The notes under the pieces are model-generated. The model was not told where the DNA came from and ran no database searches. It worked only from the letters and a program-made list of their open reading frames with translations. A stretch of 64,000 nucleotides of DNA from Chloroflexota bacterium (GTDB lineage: Bacteria > Chloroflexota > Anaerolineae > Anaerolineales > Villigracilaceae), in NCBI GenBank assembly GCA_024434165.1, contig QMIW01000034.1, forward strand, positions 1 through 64,000. Reading direction: 5' to 3'. The translations under genes and the position numbers were made by a program. This document shows positions 4,528 to 49,742 of the stretch, piece by piece. The number at the start of each line of letters is the position of its first letter. Position 1 is the first letter of the stretch.

Positions 4528-4657
4528 TAAGTAGTCGGTCATAAGTTTTTAGAAAACAAATTCCTGCTCATGCCGCCGTCCTCGGCGGCGGGGACGCCGC
4601 CGGGAGCGTATTTTTGTAAAATTTATTTTTGTAAAATTTATTTCGACCGACTACTTA
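4528..4657 (+). mobile_element. MITE copy 1 (130 bp, terminal inverted repeats)
   Basis: The ends TAAGTAGTCGGTC and GACCGACTACTTA are perfect inverted repeats. The interior holds a GC-rich palindrome (CCGCCGTCCTCGGCGGCGG, about 4592-4610) and an A/T-rich arm. It matches copy 2 (27668-27782, opposite orientation) apart from one substitution and one extra tandem copy of the 15-base word TTTTTGTAAAATTTA. The outer TA dinucleotides could be a TA target duplication. The element sits between the T-box terminator and leuS. It has no coding capacity. Confidence 0.85.
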
Positions 4658-14065: not shown

Positions 14066-14117
14066 GTACCGCAAGATAAATCTTGCGACGGATTGCGCGA
14101 ATTGAATTTCGGGGTAC
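14066..14117. repeat. REP/BIME-like double palindrome after lutBC
   Basis: GTACCGCAAGATAAATCTTGCG is split as GTAC plus CGCAAGAT-aa-ATCTTGCG. A second, weaker palindrome CGCGAATT-ga-ATTTCGGGGTAC follows in inverse orientation. The same two-part layout is seen at 21853-21906 and 28383-28437. Confidence 0.75.
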
Positions 14118-14163: not shown

Positions 14164-14236
14164 GCCCCCATCGTCTAGCGGCCCAGGACGGAGCCCTCTC
14201 AAGGCTCAAACCGGAGTTCGAGTCTCCGTGGGGGCA
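14164..14236 (+). tRNA. tRNA-Glu (anticodon CTC)
   Basis: A complete 73-nt cloverleaf. The acceptor GCCCCCA pairs with TGGGGGC, the D-stem is GTCT/GGAC, the anticodon stem GAGCC/GGCTC with loop CTCTCAA (CTC at 14198-14200), and the T-stem CGGAG/CTCCG. The discriminator is A. It reads GAG codons. It is followed by repeated copies of its own 3' half. Confidence 0.95.
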
Positions 14237-14394
14237 CTCGCTCACTCGCGTAAGCCCCACTCATACCATCGAGGTACGCGAGGCTCAAACCGGAGTTCGA
14301 GTCTCCGTGGGGGCACTCGCTCACTCGCGTAAGCCCCACTCATACCATCGAGGTACGCGAGGCTCAAACCGGGATTCGAATTCCCGTGGGGGCA
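14202..14394 (+). repeat. 79-bp tandem repeat carrying the 3' half of tRNA-Glu
   Basis: The segment beginning AGGCTCAAACCGGAGTTCG starts at 14202 (inside the real tRNA), again at 14281 and again at 14360, a period of exactly 79 bp. Units 1 and 2 are identical over the compared bases. Unit 3 keeps the tRNA end but has altered T-stem bases on both sides (CGGGA/TCCCG), so pairing is preserved. The repeated tRNA halves lack the 5' half and cannot fold as full tRNAs. Confidence 0.9.
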
Positions 14395-14403
14395 CACTTA
14401 ATG

Positions 14404-21852: not shown

Positions 21853-21906
21853 GTACCGCGAGATTTATCTCGCACCGCAAGGAGCGCAAAATGAATTTTG
21901 CGGTAC
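21853..21906. repeat. REP/BIME-like double palindrome
   Basis: GTAC then CGCGAGAT-tt-ATCTCGC, a short spacer, then CGCAAAAT-ga-ATTTTGCGGTAC in inverse orientation. It overlaps the 3' end of the adjacent membrane gene, encoding its last residues (NSFCAPCGAR). Confidence 0.75.
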
Positions 21907-23692: not shown

Positions 23693-25060
23693 TCAGTCCG
23701 CAAGTTTCGCCAGCCATTGATCGGCAGATGCGATGAAGGGAGGTTGTTCTTTGTGTTTGGCGGTTGCGTACATCAGCCAGAGGACGATCAGCGGCGCGAT
23801 GAGACGACCATAAGACCAGGGGAAGAAGTCGAAGGACGGCAGGACGAATTCGAGGAAATAAGCGGCTAGGAAAATCATCCAATGCGCGGGAGATTGGATG
23901 CGCTTGAGCAGGAGCAGAAAGGAAAGCGTGACGAAGATGCCGTGATGATCCCAAACGATGGGCGAGCCAAGCGTCATGAAGATGAACAAGGCAGGGGCGG
24001 CGTTGAGCAGGCGGTTCTCCTTCGAAAAGGATTGGGCGCGGACATTTTGCGTCACCGTGTAAAGCGCGGCGATAAGCAGGAGGAGCTTCGCGGCGAATGC
24101 CATGATGCGCGTTGGTTCGATTTGAATCCCAAAGAAGGGGTTGAGGAAGCGCAGGAAGGAATCAAAGGAGGTATCGTGGAAATTCGTGTCGGGGATTTGC
24201 GTGAGAAGAACAGCGTTGTTGACGTATTGGAAATAAGGCTCGACCCCGTTCACCGCAATGGGAAAAAGCCCGATGACGAGAAAAGCCGCTGCGAACCAGA
24301 CCAGCCAGCGCCAGTTGAATTCCAGTAAAAAAGCCAGCACGATGACGACGGGGGAGGTTTTGAGGTGAACCGCAAGCGCAAGCGCCAATGCAGAGAGGAA
24401 GGTGTTTTTTGGGAAAGCGAGCAGGCTGAGGAGAATCAAGTCCATGACCAGCAGGTTGACCTGGATGAATCCCAGCGTCCGCATGAGAGGTGTGTTGACA
24501 AGGAGGAAGAGGAGGGTGATGATGACCGAAAGGCGGTGAGGGAAGTCGTAACGCTGAAGAACCTGAACAAGCAGAAAATAGAAAGCGGAAAGGGCGATGA
24601 TGTTGACAAGCCATAAGACGATCATCACGCCCTGGTCGCCGAGCGGGACAATGAACTGAATCAGCGTTGCCCAGAGCGGGAGATAAAGGTAGGTGTCGGG
24701 AAGGGGCTGCCCGTTGGCGAGGGCGGTGGCGGCTTCGAGATAGTAATGATAGTCGCCGTAGCGGAAGCGTTCGCGCAGAATTTGCAGGTACACGAACATC
24801 ACGAGGAAGAAACCAGCCGTGAGCCATACGTTGGCTTTGTTGATCTTTTCATTGGCGAGCAGGTACAGCAGAGCGCCCGCCAACAACCAGGTGAGGGCGG
24901 TCGAAGCGAGGGTGACGGCGAGATTGGAAAGGGGCCATTCCTGGATGAAGAGGTTGAGTCCCGCTGTGCCGTTGCGAAGGTAAATGACGGCAAGGCTGGC
25001 GATGACCAGCAGGGTCAACACAACCCAGGCGCGGAATGTATTTTGCAGGGCAATTTTCAT
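23693..25060 (-). CDS. DUF2029/GT87-like membrane glycosyltransferase
   Basis: A 455-residue protein with ten or more helices and an early loop, RFRYGDYHYYLEAATAL, of the kind seen in GT87 mannosyltransferase-like proteins (acidic residue after an arginine/tyrosine patch). It also shows SFDSFLRFLNPFFG and a C-terminal helical bundle. Its ATG overlaps the upstream gene's stop by four bases (ATGA), so the 25057-27582, 23693 and 21865 genes form one operon. Substrate unknown; polyprenyl-phosphate-linked sugar transfer at the membrane is inferred from the family. Confidence 0.7.
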   Translation of the reverse strand: MKIALQNTFRAWVVLTLLVIASLAVIYLRNGTAGLNLFIQEWPLSNLAVTLASTALTWLLAGALLYLLANEKINKANVWLTAGFFLVMFVYLQILRERFRYGDYHYYLEAATALANGQPLPDTYLYLPLWATLIQFIVPLGDQGVMIVLWLVNIIALSAFYFLLVQVLQRYDFPHRLSVIITLLFLLVNTPLMRTLGFIQVNLLVMDLILLSLLAFPKNTFLSALALALAVHLKTSPVVIVLAFLLEFNWRWLVWFAAAFLVIGLFPIAVNGVEPYFQYVNNAVLLTQIPDTNFHDTSFDSFLRFLNPFFGIQIEPTRIMAFAAKLLLLIAALYTVTQNVRAQSFSKENRLLNAAPALFIFMTLGSPIVWDHHGIFVTLSFLLLLKRIQSPAHWMIFLAAYFLEFVLPSFDFFPWSYGRLIAPLIVLWLMYATAKHKEQPPFIASADQWLAKLAD

Positions 25061-27582
25061 GGGTTATCCTGAAGCGTCTTATTATCCCTTAAAAACGCAA
25101 ATTGAAGAACCAACGCAAGCAGGATGAGCGCAGGCGGCAGGAACGACCAGCTATAACGCGGAAAGTACCCGATGGGCTTCAACACGACGTAGACCGGCAG
25201 CATGCTGAGCAGGAACAGGCTGAGGCGCAAATCCAGTTTTTCAAAAATGCCTTTGCGATAAACCAGCGAGATTAACGCCGCAAGAAGCCCGAACAAAATG
25301 GGGAGCGTGATCAGAACAAGGTCCAGCGGGTTTCTTTGAATCTGATTCCGAAGGAACTCCTCGTCGCCGCCCACGATCACGCTTCCCAGACTCATCAACA
25401 CAGACCAGAGCGAGGTCTGGTCGTTCATCTCGTGAGTCAACGTATAGCCGGGATGAAAACGGGAGTAGACGGATGCGATCAGGAGCGATGGGAGCGGAAT
25501 CGCAATGAGGTAGGAAACCCAGCGCTTCCAATCGGACCTCAGCCAGTGAATGAAAGAACCCCAGGCTTGAGAGAACCCGCCGGCAAATGCAGGCGCAAGG
25601 AAGGTAATCGCCGTGAAAATGGCGCCTGCAAAGTTCAAGCGCAGCATTCCGGTGATGACGCCGGCGGCGAACATGGCGGCGAATTTACCCTCCTTTGCAA
25701 AGTACGCCGTCAGAAGCAGGGTCAAAATCGCCACCGGTTCGATCAGCCCGAAGCGGTAGAAGTACGTGAAACTGACCGGCAGCATGGTGAGAAGGAGGAA
25801 CAAACCGGCGGCAGCGAACGCATTGCGTCTGGATAAGCCAAAATACGCCGCCAACTCTGCCATCAGGATGACGCTCAATACCGCGCTCCAGACATTCAGG
25901 AAAAACTGCGCGGCGAGCGACTGCCCAAACAGAACGTGCAATAAACCGATGACATACGGGAAAAGCACTTTGTACGCCCAGGGCGGGGATTGCAGCAGGA
26001 AAACGTCGCCTCCGACGTAGATGTTCCGCGCCAGCATTTGATATTCCAACGCATCCTGATATTGGGGCAGGATCGTCACGCTTTGCAAGTTGGGCACATC
26101 CAGCGGAAGGAACATCAGCAGAATGGGCAAACCAACAGAGAATAAGTATCCCTTGAACGAATAGGTTCTGGAACGAAGGACAAGATCCAGCAGTTTCACG
26201 ATGGAAAGCCCGCCGACAGCAGCAATGATTAAAAGGTGGATGCGGGGTTTGTCGGCAATATTGGCGATGGAATACAGGACAAATCCCGTCAGCGCAAGAT
26301 ACAGGTCTGGAGAGTCCAGCCCGCCCGCACGCTGAAAGGCATACAACCCGTCGAACAGACTGTAAAGGACGACAGCCAGCAGGATCAGGGCAATCAGGTT
26401 TTGAATTGACTGCAGCCCGCCGGTGGGAAGGTCGAGCGTGGAGGAGGAAAGCCATATCTGCGGAAGGGCGGAGCGTGTGGAGCCGTCTGAACTGAGAATC
26501 AGAGGCTCGAAGCGCCCGTTCCCGTAACTCTCGAAGACAAGGACACCCTCCAACCAGGCTTTCCCAACGTAGGGTATCTCATCGGAGAGCCCTGCATCCA
26601 ACTCGCCGGCAGATTTGGCGGTTGCAACATCCAGGACTTCCCCGGTTTTCATATCCGTCAATTCGATTTGCCGCCGGCTCGCCCCTTGAACCAGAATGAC
26701 CAGCCGTTCGTCTTCATCCATCGAAATCGCGCCGCTGAATTTCAGCGCCATCCAGAAATCGTTTTTATTAAAGCCGTGACGATTAATGGATTCAACGGGC
26801 AGTTCATTGAACGAACGATAAGGGCGCTGCATCACCTGCGAAGGGGTCGGCGCGAGGAAGGATTCGTAGGTACGCTCCCATTTGCCGGAGACAAGCGCTT
26901 CTTCGCTGAAGTAGATGTGAACTCCCAATCCCGCCTGAGGGAGGAAAAAGGTCAGGGCGAGCCTGGCAGCCAGCAAAAGGGTGAGAAGAAGCGTCACCGC
27001 TTTTTTGGAAAGAAAATCCCGCCCGAAGAAAAAGGCAAAGGGCAGAAGCACAGTCGCGGTGATGAATTCAAAAGGCGTATTCCAGGGGAAACCGTCAATC
27101 AGCGAAGGGACGCGGGATGGAACGAGCAGGACGCCATAGCAGGATGCAAGAGCGAGGAATGCAAAACGGCGCGGGGACTTTGTCTCAAGATCTGCCTTGC
27201 GGGGTTTCTGAAAAAAGAACAGGACTTCGACGCCGATCAACCAGAGACAGGCGAAAAGCGCCCCGATGGCTTGCAGCGCCTCCACGCCGGGACTGCGAAG
27301 AAACAAAAACGCCGAAAGCAGAACGGGGACGGCAAGCGCGCCGAACTGCCCAACCCTGCCGCTCAAAACCGAACCGACACGGACTGCGTGAGACTTCAAG
27401 AAGAACGGGGCAGCCGCACAACCCATGCCGAGCAACATCACGGTTACTGCAAGCAAAGTAGTGGTACGCAGGTTTTGTGTCAGCGCGGCGGCAAGCGTCC
27501 ATGCCCCTGCAAGGATGAGTTCAGCGCCGGCAAGGTAGAGGAAACGGGAAAGACGGGAGGCGGGATCGGAATACGGGATCAT
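25057..27582 (-). CDS. very large multi-spanning membrane protein with soluble middle domain
   Basis: An 841-residue protein. About eight N-terminal helices are followed by a soluble domain (about residues 225-400, with LFFREALVSGK-like segments replaced here by YFSEEALVSGKWERTY). About ten C-terminal helices follow, in which ARNIYVGGDVFLLQSPPWAY resembles a GT-C catalytic loop. The likely start is ATG 27582; a REP-like palindrome lies just upstream. It is the first gene of the three-gene membrane operon. I do not recognise a named family. Confidence 0.6.
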   Translation of the reverse strand: MIPYSDPASRLSRFLYLAGAELILAGAWTLAAALTQNLRTTTLLAVTVMLLGMGCAAAPFFLKSHAVRVGSVLSGRVGQFGALAVPVLLSAFLFLRSPGVEALQAIGALFACLWLIGVEVLFFFQKPRKADLETKSPRRFAFLALASCYGVLLVPSRVPSLIDGFPWNTPFEFITATVLLPFAFFFGRDFLSKKAVTLLLTLLLAARLALTFFLPQAGLGVHIYFSEEALVSGKWERTYESFLAPTPSQVMQRPYRSFNELPVESINRHGFNKNDFWMALKFSGAISMDEDERLVILVQGASRRQIELTDMKTGEVLDVATAKSAGELDAGLSDEIPYVGKAWLEGVLVFESYGNGRFEPLILSSDGSTRSALPQIWLSSSTLDLPTGGLQSIQNLIALILLAVVLYSLFDGLYAFQRAGGLDSPDLYLALTGFVLYSIANIADKPRIHLLIIAAVGGLSIVKLLDLVLRSRTYSFKGYLFSVGLPILLMFLPLDVPNLQSVTILPQYQDALEYQMLARNIYVGGDVFLLQSPPWAYKVLFPYVIGLLHVLFGQSLAAQFFLNVWSAVLSVILMAELAAYFGLSRRNAFAAAGLFLLLTMLPVSFTYFYRFGLIEPVAILTLLLTAYFAKEGKFAAMFAAGVITGMLRLNFAGAIFTAITFLAPAFAGGFSQAWGSFIHWLRSDWKRWVSYLIAIPLPSLLIASVYSRFHPGYTLTHEMNDQTSLWSVLMSLGSVIVGGDEEFLRNQIQRNPLDLVLITLPILFGLLAALISLVYRKGIFEKLDLRLSLFLLSMLPVYVVLKPIGYFPRYSWSFLPPALILLALVLQFAFLRDNKTLQDNP

Positions 27583-27596
27583 TAATGGCTCAGGCA

Positions 27597-27620
27597 GAAC
27601 GAGATAGTATCTTGCGCTAC
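27597..27620. repeat. single REP-like palindrome
   Basis: GAACGAGATAGTATCTTGCG is followed by CTAC. Read on the minus strand this is GTAG next to an AGATA/TATCT hairpin, the layout of classical REP elements. It lies upstream of the 841-residue membrane gene and near the RAYT. Confidence 0.6.
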
Positions 27621-27667
27621 ATATCAAACTTAGAGTAGGTCCATTTCCACTTCGTCCAATCGTCGGT

Positions 27668-27782
27668 TAAGTAGTCGGTCGAAATAAATTTTACAAAAAT
27701 ACGCTCCCGGCGGCGTCCCCGCCGCCGAGGATGGCGGCATGAGCAGGAATTTGTTTTCTAAAAACTTATGACCGACTACTTA
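27668..27782 (-). mobile_element. MITE copy 2 (115 bp), abutting the RAYT gene
   Basis: A complete copy with perfect terminal inverted repeats TAAGTAGTCGGTC/GACCGACTACTTA, inverted relative to copy 1. It differs by one substitution in the GC-rich centre and lacks the 15-base tandem duplication. Its right end overlaps the last codons of the RAYT (27766-27782), so the transposase C-terminus (LSSRS) is read from the element. Confidence 0.88.
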
Positions 27783-28374
27783 GACCGGCTTTTACCGGAT
27801 TAAAAAGTACGTATTTTATTATTCGCTCAAGTTCTTTTTCGTCGCGCGCGAAATGGTCGTAACTTTCACGCTGCCAAAATGCGCCGGTCCTGCCTAAAAC
27901 TCTGTTTGCGTGATTTGCAGAATTTCGCTTGATGTTGTGCATGATTTTTGTCAGGCTGTAATCCGCCGTATCCGAACTTGCATAAGGCGTCAAAACCACA
28001 TGTCCATGATTGGGCATGATGCAATATGCCAACACATCAAACCAATCACCATTGTGGTAAAGAATCGAATCGGCGGCGATTTGGGCGATTCGATCATCCT
28101 TCAGCCAGAAGGGTCCAGTCCGGCTCTTGTGGAGAGCGTCATCCCATTTCCCGAAAAGTTTACGCTGTTCCCTGTCGCGCAAGAGCAGCCTCTCTTTTGG
28201 GTCTTCAACGGTCAGGAGTTTCTTTTCCACTTGCTCCGCCTCTGCGCGAAGCTGCTCCACAACATCCTTCGGAAGCGAGCCTGCTAAACGAAAATTGATC
28301 AGAAAAGTCGCTCCGCGCGGCTGGATGTGAGGCAGGTTTCGACGGTAGTATTCGCGGTAATTGAGATTGTTCAT
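27766..28374 (-). CDS. REP-associated tyrosine transposase (RAYT, Y1_Tnp)
   Basis: A 202-residue single-stranded-DNA transposase of the IS200/REP family. Seen: the N-terminal family block YYRRNLPHIQPRGATFL; the metal-binding HUH-type motif in IMPNHGHVVLTP (HGH rather than the more common HVH); and the catalytic tyrosine in FWQRESYDHFARDE, followed by the family ending YVLFNPVKAGL. Such proteins cut REP hairpins at a GTAG tetranucleotide. REP-like palindromes with GTAG/CTAC feet lie on both sides (27597-27620, 28383-28437), and a MITE with GTAG near both ends overlaps its 3' end. The ATG at 28374 lies nine bases from the upstream palindrome. Probably active or recently active. Confidence 0.92.
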   Translation of the reverse strand: MNNLNYREYYRRNLPHIQPRGATFLINFRLAGSLPKDVVEQLRAEAEQVEKKLLTVEDPKERLLLRDREQRKLFGKWDDALHKSRTGPFWLKDDRIAQIAADSILYHNGDWFDVLAYCIMPNHGHVVLTPYASSDTADYSLTKIMHNIKRNSANHANRVLGRTGAFWQRESYDHFARDEKELERIIKYVLFNPVKAGLSSRS

Positions 28375-28382
28375 GGCAGTTC

Positions 28383-28437
28383 GTAGAGCGAGATAATATC
28401 TCGCTCCACCATTGCACAAAATACTACTTCGTGCTAC
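28383..28437. repeat. BIME-like pair of REP palindromes upstream of RAYT
   Basis: GTAG is followed by AGCGAGAT-aat-ATCTCGCT, a spacer, then GCACAAAATACTACTTCGTGC ending in CTAC. The pair is head to head with GTAG at the left foot and CTAC at the right. It overlaps the stop codon of metH (28434-28436). Confidence 0.78.
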
Positions 28438-31400
28438 TTCATCAACTGCTCGACTCTCGACTCGCCGACACTGTAATACTTCGCGTCCTTGTGATGCACG
28501 ATGATCGCCGCGGTGGATTGTTCGGGAATCAATTGATACGCCGCGCTCAGGCTCATGCCGAGTTCGCTCGTGACAGCGGGCAGCAGCTCGAACACCTTCT
28601 TGTGGTCTTCGAGTTCGGGAATGGCGGGATAGCCCCACGAATAACGTTTGCCCTGTCCCTCCGGGATTCCCAATTCGCGGCGGATGTGTTCGTGCAGATA
28701 GTTCGCCGTCGCTTCGGCGGCTTGAACGGCGAGCCCGTGCGTGAAGTAGGCTTCGGTGTAATCGTTCGCGGCTTGCAGTTTGTCGAAGCGTTCGGTGGCT
28801 TCCTGCCCAACGGTCACAACCTGGAATGCGACCACATCCAATTTGCCCGAATCAACAGGGGCAAAATAATCGGACAGTGCAAGGTGTTCATCATACGGCT
28901 GGCGCGGGAAGGTCAAGCGCGTCAATTCATCAGGCGAGGCGGAGTTGACAGTTTCGGGGTCGTAAATGATCAAATCATCGCCATCCGACTGGCAGGGGAA
29001 GTAGCCGTACACGCCCTGCGGTTTAAGCCATTTCTCGCGCAAAGCGTCCCTGGTCATGCGCGCCAGACGTTCATCGAACTCGGCTTTGAGTTTTTCCCAT
29101 TCTGCCCCGTGCGCGTTCTTTGCGCCCCACGACAGGCGGTACAACTCATTGAGGCTGAGGTGCTTCAGGACGATCTCCAGCGGCATGTCTTTGACGACGC
29201 GCTGTCCCCACTTCAGCGGATGGTTAATCGCCTCAGGCTGGACCTGGGAGCGGGTCCCCGTTTTGCGATGTTCCGGCACCTGGGAGGCGCGTCCCATCTC
29301 CGCCTCCGCTTCGCGGCGGATGCGGGCAAGCAGTTCTTCGCGCTTCTCCGGGACGATGAGTTGGTCCATCGTTTCGAGACCCTCAAAAGCGTCCTTGCAG
29401 TAGAAGACGCCAGGCTCGTGAATGTTGCCATCTTCGGCGAACAGGATTCTCCTGCCAAAGCGGCGGTTGATCGCCGCGCCGCCGACCAGCACAGGGAAGT
29501 CGAGTTCGCGGCGGTGCAGTTCATTGACGATGAGCGGCATCTGCTTGGAGGTCGAGACCAGAAGCGCGGAAAGCCCGATGGCAGTGGCATTGACCTCCAC
29601 GGCTTTGGTGATGATCGTCTCGGCGGGGACCTGCTTGCCGAGATCAATCACGTCGTAGCCGTTGTTGGAGAGAATCGTCTTGACGAGATTCTTTCCGATG
29701 TCATGCACATCGCCATAGACGGTCGCCAGCACAACCAGACCTTTGCTGACACCCTCTTTCTTTTCAAGATAGTTTTCCAGATGCGCGACGGTTTTCTTCA
29801 TCACCTCGGCGGATTGCAGCACGAACGGCAAAATCAATTCGCCTGCGCCAAACTTGTCACCCACCTCCTTCATGGCGGGGAGGAGGACGGTGTTGAGGAT
29901 GGTGACGGCGATTTCGTGTTGCCGTGCCTTCACCCCAACCCTCTCCTGAGGGGAGAGGGAGTCGTCCCTCATCCCCGACCCCTCTCCCGAGGGGAGAGGG
30001 GATTCACCCTCATCCCCAACTCTTCCCCCATCGGGGGAAGGGAGCAAGCCCCCCTCTTCCGAGGGGAGAGGGGATTCACCCTCATCCCCAACTCTTCCCC
30101 CGACGGGGGAAGGGAGCGAGTCCCCCTCTCCAACGGGAGAGGGGTTAGGGGTGAGGGAGCGATTGATGATCTCATCAATATCCGCTTCCACGCCGTCTTT
30201 ATGGCGGTGCAGGATTTTCCAGTGCAGGCGCTGTTCAGGGGTCATGCCTGCGGTGGGGTCTGCGACATTGGAGCCTGTGGAGATTTCCACATTTTCAAAG
30301 TGCTGGATGAAACGCTGCAATGCGTCTTCGCGGCGGTTGAAGATGAGGTCTTCGCACAGTTCGCGTTCTTCGGGGTCAATTTCGGCGTAGGGCTTGACGT
30401 GCGCGGCATTGACGATTGCCATATCCAAGCCCGCCTGCACACAGTGATAGAGCATGACGGAGTTGAGCGCGGGGCGCGCCTGCGGGGCGAGACCGAACGA
30501 GAGGTTGCTCACACCCAGCGAAGCCATCACGCCAGGCAGGTTTTGTTTGATCAGCCGAATGCCCTCGATGGTTTCCTTTGCGGAATCCACAAATTCGGGG
30601 TCGCCTGTGGCGAGGGTAAAGGTCAGGTCGTCGAAGACGAGGTCTTCGGGTTTGAGTCCGTGATCGTTGACGGCGATGTCATAGATGCGCTTCGCCACTT
30701 CCAGTTTGCGCTGGGCGGTCTTTGCCATGCCGCTTTCGTCAATGGTGAGACAGATCACCGCGGCGTTGTATTTTTTGGCAAGACCGAACACTTTATCGGC
30801 TTTCTCGCGTCCCGCTTCGAGATGCGTAGAGTTGATCAAACACCGCCCAGGCGCGGTCTGCAAAGCGATTTCGAGAACATCGGGTTCGGTGGTGTCAATC
30901 ACGAGCGGAACATCCACGCCCATTTGCAATTTCTTGACCACCTTGCGCATCAGTTCGCCTTCGTCCGCGCGCTCGGTGACGGCGACGGAAATGTCGAGGG
31001 CATGCGCGCCGCCCGCCACCTGTTCGCGCGCGATGTCGAGGATGCCGTCGTAATCTTCTTCGAGCAGGAGCCGCTTGAACTTGCGCGATCCCTGCGCGTT
31101 GCAGCGCTCGCCGATGAGGGTGGGCGGAGGGTCCTGCCGCATGGCAATCGCCGACATGGCAGAGGCAAGCTGGGGCGTGGAGCGACGCGGGGCGTCGGTC
31201 ATTGGTAATTGGTAATCGGAGAGTCGGTCAACAAGTAATTTGAGATGCGCTGGAGTCGTTCCGCAACAGCCGCCGACAACTCGCACATTATGTTTCGTCA
31301 CGAACTCATACATGTCATTCGCGTACGGCTCGGGTTCGAGCGGGTACACGGCTTGACCATCCACGTTGAGCGGCAGACCCGCGTTGGGGATGCACGAAAC

Positions 31401-32246
31401 GGGAAGCGTTGAATTTTCTCCCAGAAAACGAATCGGCTCGCGCATGTGTTCGGGTCCCGTCGAGCAGTTGAGACCGATGACGTCAATGCCCATGCCTTCG
31501 AGGATGGCAAGGGAGGCGTTGATGTCGGTGCCGAGTAACATACGTCCCGTCGTATCGAGCGTGACCTGAGCCTGGATCGGCAAATAAACATTCGTTTCGC
31601 TGAAGGCTTTATGAATGCCCGTGATGGCGGCTTTGACTTCGAGGATATCCTGCGAGGTTTCGATGAGCAGGACGTCCACGCCGCCTTTGATAAGACCGAC
31701 CGCCTGTTCGCGGAACACATCCACCAATTCATCGTAGGCGATGTTCGAGAGTTCGGGGTCGTTGGTGGACGGCAGTTTGCCGCTTGGACCGATCGAACCT
31801 GCGACGAATCTTTCCCTCACCCCTAACCCCTCTCCCGCGGGGAGAGGGGGATTCTGGCTCCCTTCTCCCAATGGGAGAAGGGCTGGGGATGAGGGTGGTT
31901 GCGAGTACTCGTCGGCGAGTCGTCTTGCCAGGCGTGCGGCTGTTTCATTGATTTCAAGTACTCTATCTTGCAAGCCATATTCCTTCATCGTGATGCGGTT
32001 GGAGCGGAACGTGCAAGTCTCGATGACGTCCACGCCGACCTCGAGGAAGGAACGGTGGACTTTTTCCACGGCTTCGGGATACGAGATGACGAGGTAGTCG
32101 TTGCATCCGTTGTACTGTTCGCCGCCGAAATGCTCGGCGGTCAGGTTTTGCTGCTGCAGGCTGGTTCCCATCGCGCCATCGAAGATGAGGACTTTCTTTT
32201 CGAGGGCGTCGAGGTAACGGCGGTTGGTGTATTTGCGAGGGGTCAT
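28434..32246 (-). CDS. metH: cobalamin-dependent methionine synthase with in-frame repeat insertions
   Basis: A 1270-residue enzyme that moves methyl groups from methyl-THF to homocysteine through cobalamin. Domains in order: homocysteine-binding (DGAMGTSLQQQN; zinc ligands in LNCSTGP and GGCCGTTPAHL), pterin-binding (about 375-680, GERCNAQGSRKFK), cap, B12-binding (VYGDVHDIGKNLV with the cobalt-ligand histidine) and AdoMet activation domain (ending near YYSVGESRVEQLMK). It is slightly longer than usual because two patches of a palindromic repeat are read through in frame at about residues 117-145 and 697-772, both in loops or linkers. A TAATTGG word lies at 341-349. A ribosome site (AAGGAAAC) precedes ATG 32246. 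A SAM riboswitch lies upstream beyond two unrelated genes. Confidence 0.97.
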   Translation of the reverse strand: MTPRKYTNRRYLDALEKKVLIFDGAMGTSLQQQNLTAEHFGGEQYNGCNDYLVISYPEAVEKVHRSFLEVGVDVIETCTFRSNRITMKEYGLQDRVLEINETAARLARRLADEYSQPPSSPALLPLGEGSQNPPLPAGEGLGVRERFVAGSIGPSGKLPSTNDPELSNIAYDELVDVFREQAVGLIKGGVDVLLIETSQDILEVKAAITGIHKAFSETNVYLPIQAQVTLDTTGRMLLGTDINASLAILEGMGIDVIGLNCSTGPEHMREPIRFLGENSTLPVSCIPNAGLPLNVDGQAVYPLEPEPYANDMYEFVTKHNVRVVGGCCGTTPAHLKLLVDRLSDYQLPMTDAPRRSTPQLASAMSAIAMRQDPPPTLIGERCNAQGSRKFKRLLLEEDYDGILDIAREQVAGGAHALDISVAVTERADEGELMRKVVKKLQMGVDVPLVIDTTEPDVLEIALQTAPGRCLINSTHLEAGREKADKVFGLAKKYNAAVICLTIDESGMAKTAQRKLEVAKRIYDIAVNDHGLKPEDLVFDDLTFTLATGDPEFVDSAKETIEGIRLIKQNLPGVMASLGVSNLSFGLAPQARPALNSVMLYHCVQAGLDMAIVNAAHVKPYAEIDPEERELCEDLIFNRREDALQRFIQHFENVEISTGSNVADPTAGMTPEQRLHWKILHRHKDGVEADIDEIINRSLTPNPSPVGEGDSLPSPVGGRVGDEGESPLPSEEGGLLPSPDGGRVGDEGESPLPSGEGSGMRDDSLSPQERVGVKARQHEIAVTILNTVLLPAMKEVGDKFGAGELILPFVLQSAEVMKKTVAHLENYLEKKEGVSKGLVVLATVYGDVHDIGKNLVKTILSNNGYDVIDLGKQVPAETIITKAVEVNATAIGLSALLVSTSKQMPLIVNELHRRELDFPVLVGGAAINRRFGRRILFAEDGNIHEPGVFYCKDAFEGLETMDQLIVPEKREELLARIRREAEAEMGRASQVPEHRKTGTRSQVQPEAINHPLKWGQRVVKDMPLEIVLKHLSLNELYRLSWGAKNAHGAEWEKLKAEFDERLARMTRDALREKWLKPQGVYGYFPCQSDGDDLIIYDPETVNSASPDELTRLTFPRQPYDEHLALSDYFAPVDSGKLDVVAFQVVTVGQEATERFDKLQAANDYTEAYFTHGLAVQAAEATANYLHEHIRRELGIPEGQGKRYSWGYPAIPELEDHKKVFELLPAVTSELGMSLSAAYQLIPEQSTAAIIVHHKDAKYYSVGESRVEQLMK
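29931..30158. repeat. cluster of palindromic CCTCTCCC/GGGAGAGG repeats inside metH
   Basis: Several units of the form CTCTCC-x-GGGGAGAGGG and CTTCCCCC-x-GGGGGAAGGGAG alternate across 228 bp. A block of about 69 bp is almost exactly repeated (GGGGATTCACCCTCATCCCC occurs twice, near 29999 and 30070). All are read in frame as a Pro/Gly/Ser-rich insert between the pterin and cap domains. Confidence 0.9.
31814..31896. repeat. palindromic repeat inside the homocysteine domain of metH
   Basis: CCCTCACCCCTAACCCCTCT then GGGAGAGGG and CTTCTCCC-aat-GGGAGAAGG. It encodes a Pro/Leu/Gly-rich loop between ARRLADEY and RFVAGSIGP. Confidence 0.85.
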
Positions 32247-49721: not shown

Positions 49722-49742
49722 GCCACGAAGTAGTATGCTGGC
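49722..49742. repeat. REP-like palindrome fragment
   Basis: GCCACGAAGTAGTATGCTGGC shares CACGAAGTAGTAT with the right half of the element at 28383-28437. Confidence 0.5.

Follow-up and report, generated by a model that had tools for sequence, protein, structure and literature searches.

A probable REPtron beside a metH-like gene in a Chloroflexota genome, with REPs that mostly carry a foot at both ends

Organization of the locus

The window, that is, the whole stretch of 64,000 nucleotides analyzed here, comes from an Anaerolineales-related genome of the Chloroflexota (G000). It holds three consecutive genes in the order metH, RAYT (REP-associated tyrosine transposase), membrane protein, the first of which we take to be metH from its sequence. 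The RAYT lies between two REPs of one family, and a MITE overlaps its 3' end. The features are listed by position, with the strand where one is assigned.

46-72: dispersed REP of the same family, not present at the orthologous spot in the related genome G017
25057-27583, minus strand: membrane protein gene, whose homolog in three relatives follows metH at a distance of only 1-2 bp, the RAYT being absent from that junction
27594-27620, minus strand: downstream REP of the RAYT, degenerate, with its GTAG foot at 27617-27620
27617-27667, minus strand: what is left of the native RAYT 3' end, 16 codons with KFDM as the last residues, followed by a TAG (27617-27619) inside the GTAG foot
27668-27782: MITE, 27670-27780 (111 bp) with TA on each side, an apparent passenger in the RAYT
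27766-28374, minus strand: RAYT open reading frame as it stands, 202 amino acids, HuH motif H123-x-H125, candidate catalytic tyrosine Y172
28383-28409, plus strand: upstream REP of the RAYT, an almost perfect palindrome that is footed on either side (GTAG, GTGG)
28410-28437, minus strand: further GTAG-footed hairpin that matched no family; its GTAG contains the metH stop
28434-32246, minus strand: metH-like gene, upstream neighbor of the RAYT in six related loci

Identity and fold of the RAYT

The open reading frame at 27766-28374 is a RAYT, as judged from its protein family, its fold and the GTAG palindromes on its flanks, and the Y1-type assignment made in a preliminary description of this DNA holds. 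The protein matches Y1_Tnp of Pfam (1.8e-6) and REP_Tyr_transpos of NCBIfam (NF047646, E 1.8e-20), the latter at 73.3 bits against a cut-off of 80. The intact relatives L071 (89.3 bits) and L188 (86.9 bits) pass this cut-off, and a second RAYT of the genome, L049, falls under it at 65.4 bits. H123, H125 and Y172 are invariant in 22 RAYT sequences, giving an HuH motif and a single tyrosine in a Y1 fold. A profile of 22 relatives searched against the PDB found TnpAREP (4er8) as the sole sequence at E <= 0.01, with 2.3e-8. The AlphaFold model, which was built from the truncated protein, has a mean pLDDT of 85.2. Its best Foldseek match is 4er8 (1.3e-7), and VIA-align also places 4er8 first (Z 11.7, rmsd 2.8, 127 residues aligned); the IS608 and ISDra2 transposases rank behind it in the fold comparisons. 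A PHROGs search returned one family only, with function unknown.

Fold and catalytic motifs are like those of TnpAREP 4er8 and of the group 2 and 3 enzymes described in the accessible part of PMC8266576. Over the aligned range, the window protein exceeds 4er8 in length by about 60 residues (11-201 against 1-128), and in the model the extra length probably comes from helices 36-54 and 59-83. Unlike 4er8, it is without its native C-terminus. The Y1 HuH fold is shared with the transposases of IS200/IS605 elements (IS608, ISDra2), but unlike those elements there is no multicopy element here, and the palindromes are dispersed alone. The RAYT is single-copy in its own genome, where the sole other match, the second RAYT L049, is 39% identical. 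As a side observation, another RAYT, L039 (G000:C7:15062-15469), is the only one in the genome over the family cut-off, and by eye it adjoins palindrome-bearing tandem repeats, each about 70 bp long.

A MITE in the RAYT frame

When the MITE and one TA are removed, the RAYT frame reads through 214 amino acids ending in GLTDDWTKWKWTYSKFDM. The stop of this restored frame is the TAG of the GTAG foot in the palindrome 27594-27620, and the same arrangement is found in several intact relatives. The RAYT of L070/L187, which is 81% identical, has the C-terminus GLVTDWKSWKWTYCKYEM and its stop at the same place; the C-terminus of L188 is also similar. In the window copy, the codon of residue L198 ends with the TA of the MITE, and the residues SSRS and a new stop, both derived from the MITE, replace the final 16 native residues. 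The overlap reported in the preliminary description is real. G035 has a broken RAYT at this locus, and no MITE interrupts the equivalent stretch there. Since the frame is restored without the MITE and the G035 stretch is free of it, the MITE came later and from outside, as a passenger with TA flanks that landed in the RAYT frame.

A query over the MITE region gave 45 matches in the genome, the first being the region itself and the others parts of the MITE. The arrangement TA, AGTAGTCGGTC...GACCGACTACT, TA is present at eight distinct places, one of which differs by a base at one MITE end; these are the places with both ends and both flanks readable (nine rows, one of them twice, from the window and 12 loci), not all 45 matches. 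The GTAG noted earlier near the MITE ends is present as part of the terminal repeat. TA on both flanks fits a DDE-type element, and such flanks are common to other DDE families besides IS630/Tc1. TA-flanked MITEs of DDE elements have a terminal inverted repeat, TA on both flanks and many copies, as here; their autonomous partner was not found here. A DDE_3 search of the draft genome (173 contigs) gave one fragment below the cut-off, and the stretch around this fragment had no MITE ends. Among the loci examined by eye, no longer element lay between two MITE-type ends. In G058, the RAYT is split by an IS5-family element (L114, about 1965-2820). This element has TTAAGTAGTCGG near its end, as at the end of the window MITE, where three of these bases are flank; the likeness is a hint to the partner of the MITE, or chance. 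Two further observations concern MITE copies: the one at 4528 of the window is not present in G017, and at L059 a REP lies within a MITE copy.

The window RAYT is probably weakened or dead, because its C-terminus is cut off by the MITE and its downstream REP has decayed. In the available text of PMC8266576, the E. coli TnpAREP is impaired when 21 or 34 C-terminal residues are lost, but gains activity when 13 are lost, and by this analogy loss of function after losing 16 residues is only likely. RAYT decay has occurred in three ways, through the MITE in the window, the IS5-family element in G058 and stop codons in G035.

The REP family in the genome

The family pattern is GTAGnGCGAGATnnTATCTCGC, allowed up to three mismatches, and the family is called A. 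It has 92 matches in the whole genome (49 forward and 43 reverse), which merge by hand into 54 places; the reversed pattern has none. The genome search for GTAG palindromes that the preliminary description had proposed bears out a dispersed family. In the window, six matches fall at three places, 46-72, 27594-27620 and 28383-28409, and none of 100 shuffles has any. The last two places flank the RAYT, as previously proposed, and the first is new. One more family place lies just past the window at C101:64433. Since the REP is symmetric, an inverted orientation of the flanking REPs is not distinguishable. Folding as single-stranded DNA divides the two flanks. The upstream REP folds at -9.2 kcal/mol, as good as none of 200 shuffles, and the degenerate downstream REP at -1.3 kcal/mol, with 111 of 200 shuffles as good. 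A generic scan of the window for GTAG plus any hairpin gave five hits, and shuffled sequences gave 4, 9, 3, 0 and 7; significance is thus confined to the family pattern.

Three other palindromes had been assigned to the same family, and none matches the pattern. The one at 49722-49742 overlaps long open reading frames. At 14066-14117 and 21853-21906 there are double hairpins whose feet read GTACC. They form a second repeat type that also occurs, single or double, in L016 and L017 and is not present at either place in G017. Similar GTACC hairpins were seen in loci of another RAYT clade, in G019, G050, G022 and G058 (L085, L100, L101, L106). Near the first double hairpin, the 3' part of a tRNA-Glu gene (14164-14237) is repeated in tandem at 14202-14395, with one unit at 14281 that has 79 identical bases and another at 14360 that is 86% identical over 36 bases.

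Some REPs are central in a larger imperfect palindrome (L016, L017, L026, L034, L036, L038, L057, L059, L062), with arms like GGGTCAAAATAAATGA and TCATTTACGCAAACCC. Among the loci examined, no larger palindrome without a REP core was seen; ten of 11 distinct contexts have the core, and the eleventh is without both core and right arm.

REP families across genomes

Over 121 genomes, family A counts are high in seven: G017 (66), G000 (63), G058 (54), G062 (53), G050 (49), G052 (30) and G057 (28). The other 114 have at most seven matches each, and the reversed control has two in all 121. A RAYT match of at least 54% identity over at least 150 residues was found in four of the 121 genomes only, G000, G017, G052 and G058, all of them among the seven with at least 28 family A matches. 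G062, G050 and G057 have their matches without such a RAYT.

The RAYTs of G017 and G052 have a different REP downstream, family B (GCAAATTG), and a GCAAGAT stem upstream. Yet G017 holds 15 family B matches and 66 of family A, which counts against the RAYT-REP reading; the family B counts elsewhere are 0 in G000, 35 in G052, 68 in G062, 60 in G113 and 45 in G075, where many of the matches in G075, and in G060, are variants at two mismatches. No RAYT with the family B stem was seen in G062, G113 or G075, and G075 is without any match to the window RAYT. The REP of this genome's second RAYT, L049 (G000:C110:13867-14466), is family C (ACAAGTC); this RAYT has its own flanking palindromes, the downstream one being GTAGAACAAGTCTATAGACTTGTTCTAC. 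With up to two mismatches, family C has 30 matches in G000 and up to 40 elsewhere, including 22 in G005 and 19 in G072; in these last two no family C RAYT was seen, and the RAYTs seen there have other stems. For the reading that RAYTs spread their own REPs, the copies of families B and C, and some of family A, in genomes without a matching RAYT also count against it.

Orthologous sites were compared for 16 REP sites, 11 of them with alignable orthologs. The G017 site alignment left out L009, L020, L024 and L064, and one repeat-like place (L185) was included for L020. Five of seven sites compared with G017, the closest genome in the comparison, have the same REP, so much of the REP set is old, which also speaks against the RAYT-REP reading. 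At L018, G017 has family B instead of A, and at L012 it has one REP against two in G000. G021, G026 and G032 were compared by eye in 19 cases, and family A was present in none of them. Several of these sites carry other hairpins; at L009, G032 has a somewhat similar stem with no GTAG feet.

Covariation of the palindromes with the RAYT

Forty-four RAYT loci were examined, and 37 were counted after seven partial, broken or duplicate ones were dropped. With a palindrome finder and cut-off that were set after a first look at the data, a two-footed palindrome was found upstream in 27 and downstream in 29 of the 37, against 4 of 148 control windows. The palindrome starts before the end of the stop codon in 22 of 37 loci, and in 16 of 37 the stop coincides exactly with the TAG or TAA in that foot. 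The finder missed the degenerate downstream REP of the window, which was added by hand to the Mantel comparison of stem and RAYT distances. The downstream correlation is r 0.517 (n = 30) and the upstream one r 0.438 (n = 27), with none of 5000 permutations as high in either case. The two stems of a locus differ by 0.113 on average, compared with 0.479 between loci (24 loci, 0 of 5000). Across related loci, a change of RAYT goes with a change of the flanking palindrome. Joint inheritance accounts for part of the Mantel result. The vertical inheritance of RAYTs is in print (PMC8049555, in its accessible part).

The finder was also run on 65 named loci from other phyla and Chloroflexota, of which 57 remained after eight broken or partial ones were dropped. 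Here a two-footed palindrome was found upstream in 12 and downstream in 12, some of these palindromes, by eye, without GTAG-like feet. The stop is exactly at the foot in two loci, one of which is the G058 contig again. By eye, the RAYTs of L212, L221, L223, L227, L230 and L245 have gTAG at their end, and the hairpin that follows is one-footed.

Two-footed architecture of the REPs

The detailed site analysis covered 45 of the 54 places; the nine left out are C66, C88, C98, C100, C102, C135 and others that lay outside the loci analyzed or were merged because their contexts were identical. If a site matched in both readings, the one nearer the full consensus was taken, which introduces a mild bias. 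Stem positions 5 to 12 form a Watson-Crick pair in at least 38 of 45 sites each. Position 5, which the pattern leaves unspecified, is paired in 40 of the 45 (C-G 17, A-T 17, G-C 6). The feet pair less strictly, in 29-34 of 45 sites per position. GTAG-like feet, with at least three of four bases, are present at both ends in 32 sites, at one end in 11 and at neither in two. The feet are identical in 18 of 45 sites, against a shuffled mean of 10.95 (p 0.0012), and five of these 18 are not GTAG (GCAG...CTGC in three, GTAA...TTAC in two). Positions 24-25 are CT in 26 of the 45 sites and TT in ten.

Most REPs of this clade are two-footed (GTAG...CTAC, with covarying feet). Because the feet are at both ends, both strands look alike. 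The GTAG REP of PMC3733652, as defined in the available text, has an unpaired GTAG at one end only, whereas most sites here have paired feet at both ends and fall outside that definition. In a limited search of the REP/RAYT literature, partly accessible, we did not meet the two-footed form as a clade-wide rule.

Position of the RAYT beside metH

The RAYT adjoins metH in G000, G017, G050, G052, G058 and L188, and a RAYT pseudogene lies behind metH in G035. In L073 and L074, which belong to the same part of the tree, and in the other tested loci, no metH was found in the stretch examined. Among 28 genomes with the metH end read, a RAYT match behind metH was found only in G000, G017 and G035; in G025, G030 and G032, just 1-2 bp separate metH from the membrane protein gene, and no RAYT lies between them. 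For G017, DNA identity at the metH end is 94% and the last 92 residues encoded by metH are 99% identical, against 53% identity for the RAYT. The RAYT thus diverges much faster than the metH it adjoins, a pattern described for RAYTs at a fixed place by Nunvar 2010 (PMC2817692, in its accessible part). The metH stop lies inside a palindrome foot in G017 and G035 too.

Alternative explanations

The RAYT and its palindromes could together be a mobile IS200-like insertion sequence instead of a fixed gene. The RAYT-less junctions of G025, G030 and G032 and the mere three RAYT matches behind metH among 28 genomes would fit such mobility. This explanation is nonetheless unlikely. The genome has one copy of this RAYT, the only other match being 39% identical, and the presence of the RAYT beside metH in several genomes, with a pseudogene in G035, favors an old position with losses, although no metH was found in the stretches examined of L073 and L074. 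A slightly less probable alternative is that the palindromes are host RNA elements, terminators or stabilizers of mRNA ends, which recur by selection and among which the RAYT merely landed. Other hairpins do often occupy the orthologous spots of G021, G026 and G032 (by eye), and also of G017, both sides of the pairs differ together at one site (L066 against G017), and copies exist in genomes without a close RAYT. A common terminator, however, would match neither the feet and stem that flank one RAYT nor the change of these with the RAYT clade. An RNA role of the palindromes may have been added later.

The suggestion that the MITE is itself a RAYT substrate, with the GTAG near its ends as the cleavage guide, fares worst and is very improbable. 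Its terminal repeat contains GTAG, it adjoins the RAYT and it has many copies in the genome. Against this stand the TA on both sides at the eight distinct places, which fits a DDE-type element, and the RAYT frame that it splits and that is whole again without it and one TA. The orthologous remnant in G035 is free of the MITE, and MITE matches of 87-89% occur in G024, which has no match to the window RAYT, and in G032, which has one weak match (36% over 87 residues).

The locus as a REPtron and its proposed mechanism

The locus is with good confidence a REPtron of this genome, a single-copy RAYT between two cognate REPs and the probable source of the REPs at about 50 places, with the window copy damaged. 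This reading, which the preliminary description had put forward as a candidate, is supported by the protein family, the fold, the flanking palindromes, the genome-wide counts of dispersed REPs and the covariation of RAYT and palindromes. It also resembles the REPtrons of other bacteria in the accessible text of PMC2817692 and PMC3733652, where a RAYT at a fixed place lies between REPs with a GTAG foot, the stems covary with the RAYT, the RAYT diverges faster than its neighbors, and REPs supply TAG stops to open reading frames and lie inside larger palindromes. GTAG REPs were described by Di Nocera 2013, which in its available part already reports GTAG repeats in Chloroflexi (PMC3733652), the phylum in which the preliminary description held REP/RAYT pairs to be little described. 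Our search, which covered few subscription papers, found no work on REPs with their transposase in Anaerolineae. As far as the accessible sources go, REPtrons, GTAG REPs, TAG stops supplied by REPs, coevolution and fast RAYT change are already known, and the two-footed rule is the unusual part.

In the proposed mechanism, a REP would fold into a hairpin in single-stranded DNA, and the RAYT, an HuH/Y1 single-strand DNA nuclease, would bind the stem and the GTAG foot. It would then cut near the hairpin and join the ends, by which REPs could spread and be replaced between genes. According to the available text of PMC8266576, TnpAREP-type enzymes cut at CT or CA, and in a proposed model the site is chosen by a GTAG guide. 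By analogy, the window RAYT should recognize its REP as a folded single strand and cut at the same dinucleotides. The TnpAREP and group 2 and 3 enzymes of the same source process one strand and do not process an inverted REP, whereas a two-footed REP forms nearly the same hairpin on both strands. Since most REPs have a foot at both ends, the enzyme could bind either strand, and we infer that the enzymes of this clade may act on both.

Implications for REP recognition and replacement

Strand choice is a central property of REP recognition in the accessible part of PMC8266576. A tentative possibility is that two-footed REPs are strand-symmetric. The 3' foot CTAC would mirror the GTAG guide and put its own CT cleavage dinucleotide in register, the RAYT could process either strand, and the mobile unit would be the 27-nt palindrome. 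If this is true, the presence of family A in G000 and family B in G017 at one orthologous site would be the replacement of a REP at a fixed address. The REPs of this clade, which look alike from both strands, would be a natural test of the role of the GTAG foot and of the choice of cut site. G017, with aligned blocks that are 69-96% identical and with shared, missing and exchanged REPs, would make it possible to follow gains and replacements at individual sites.
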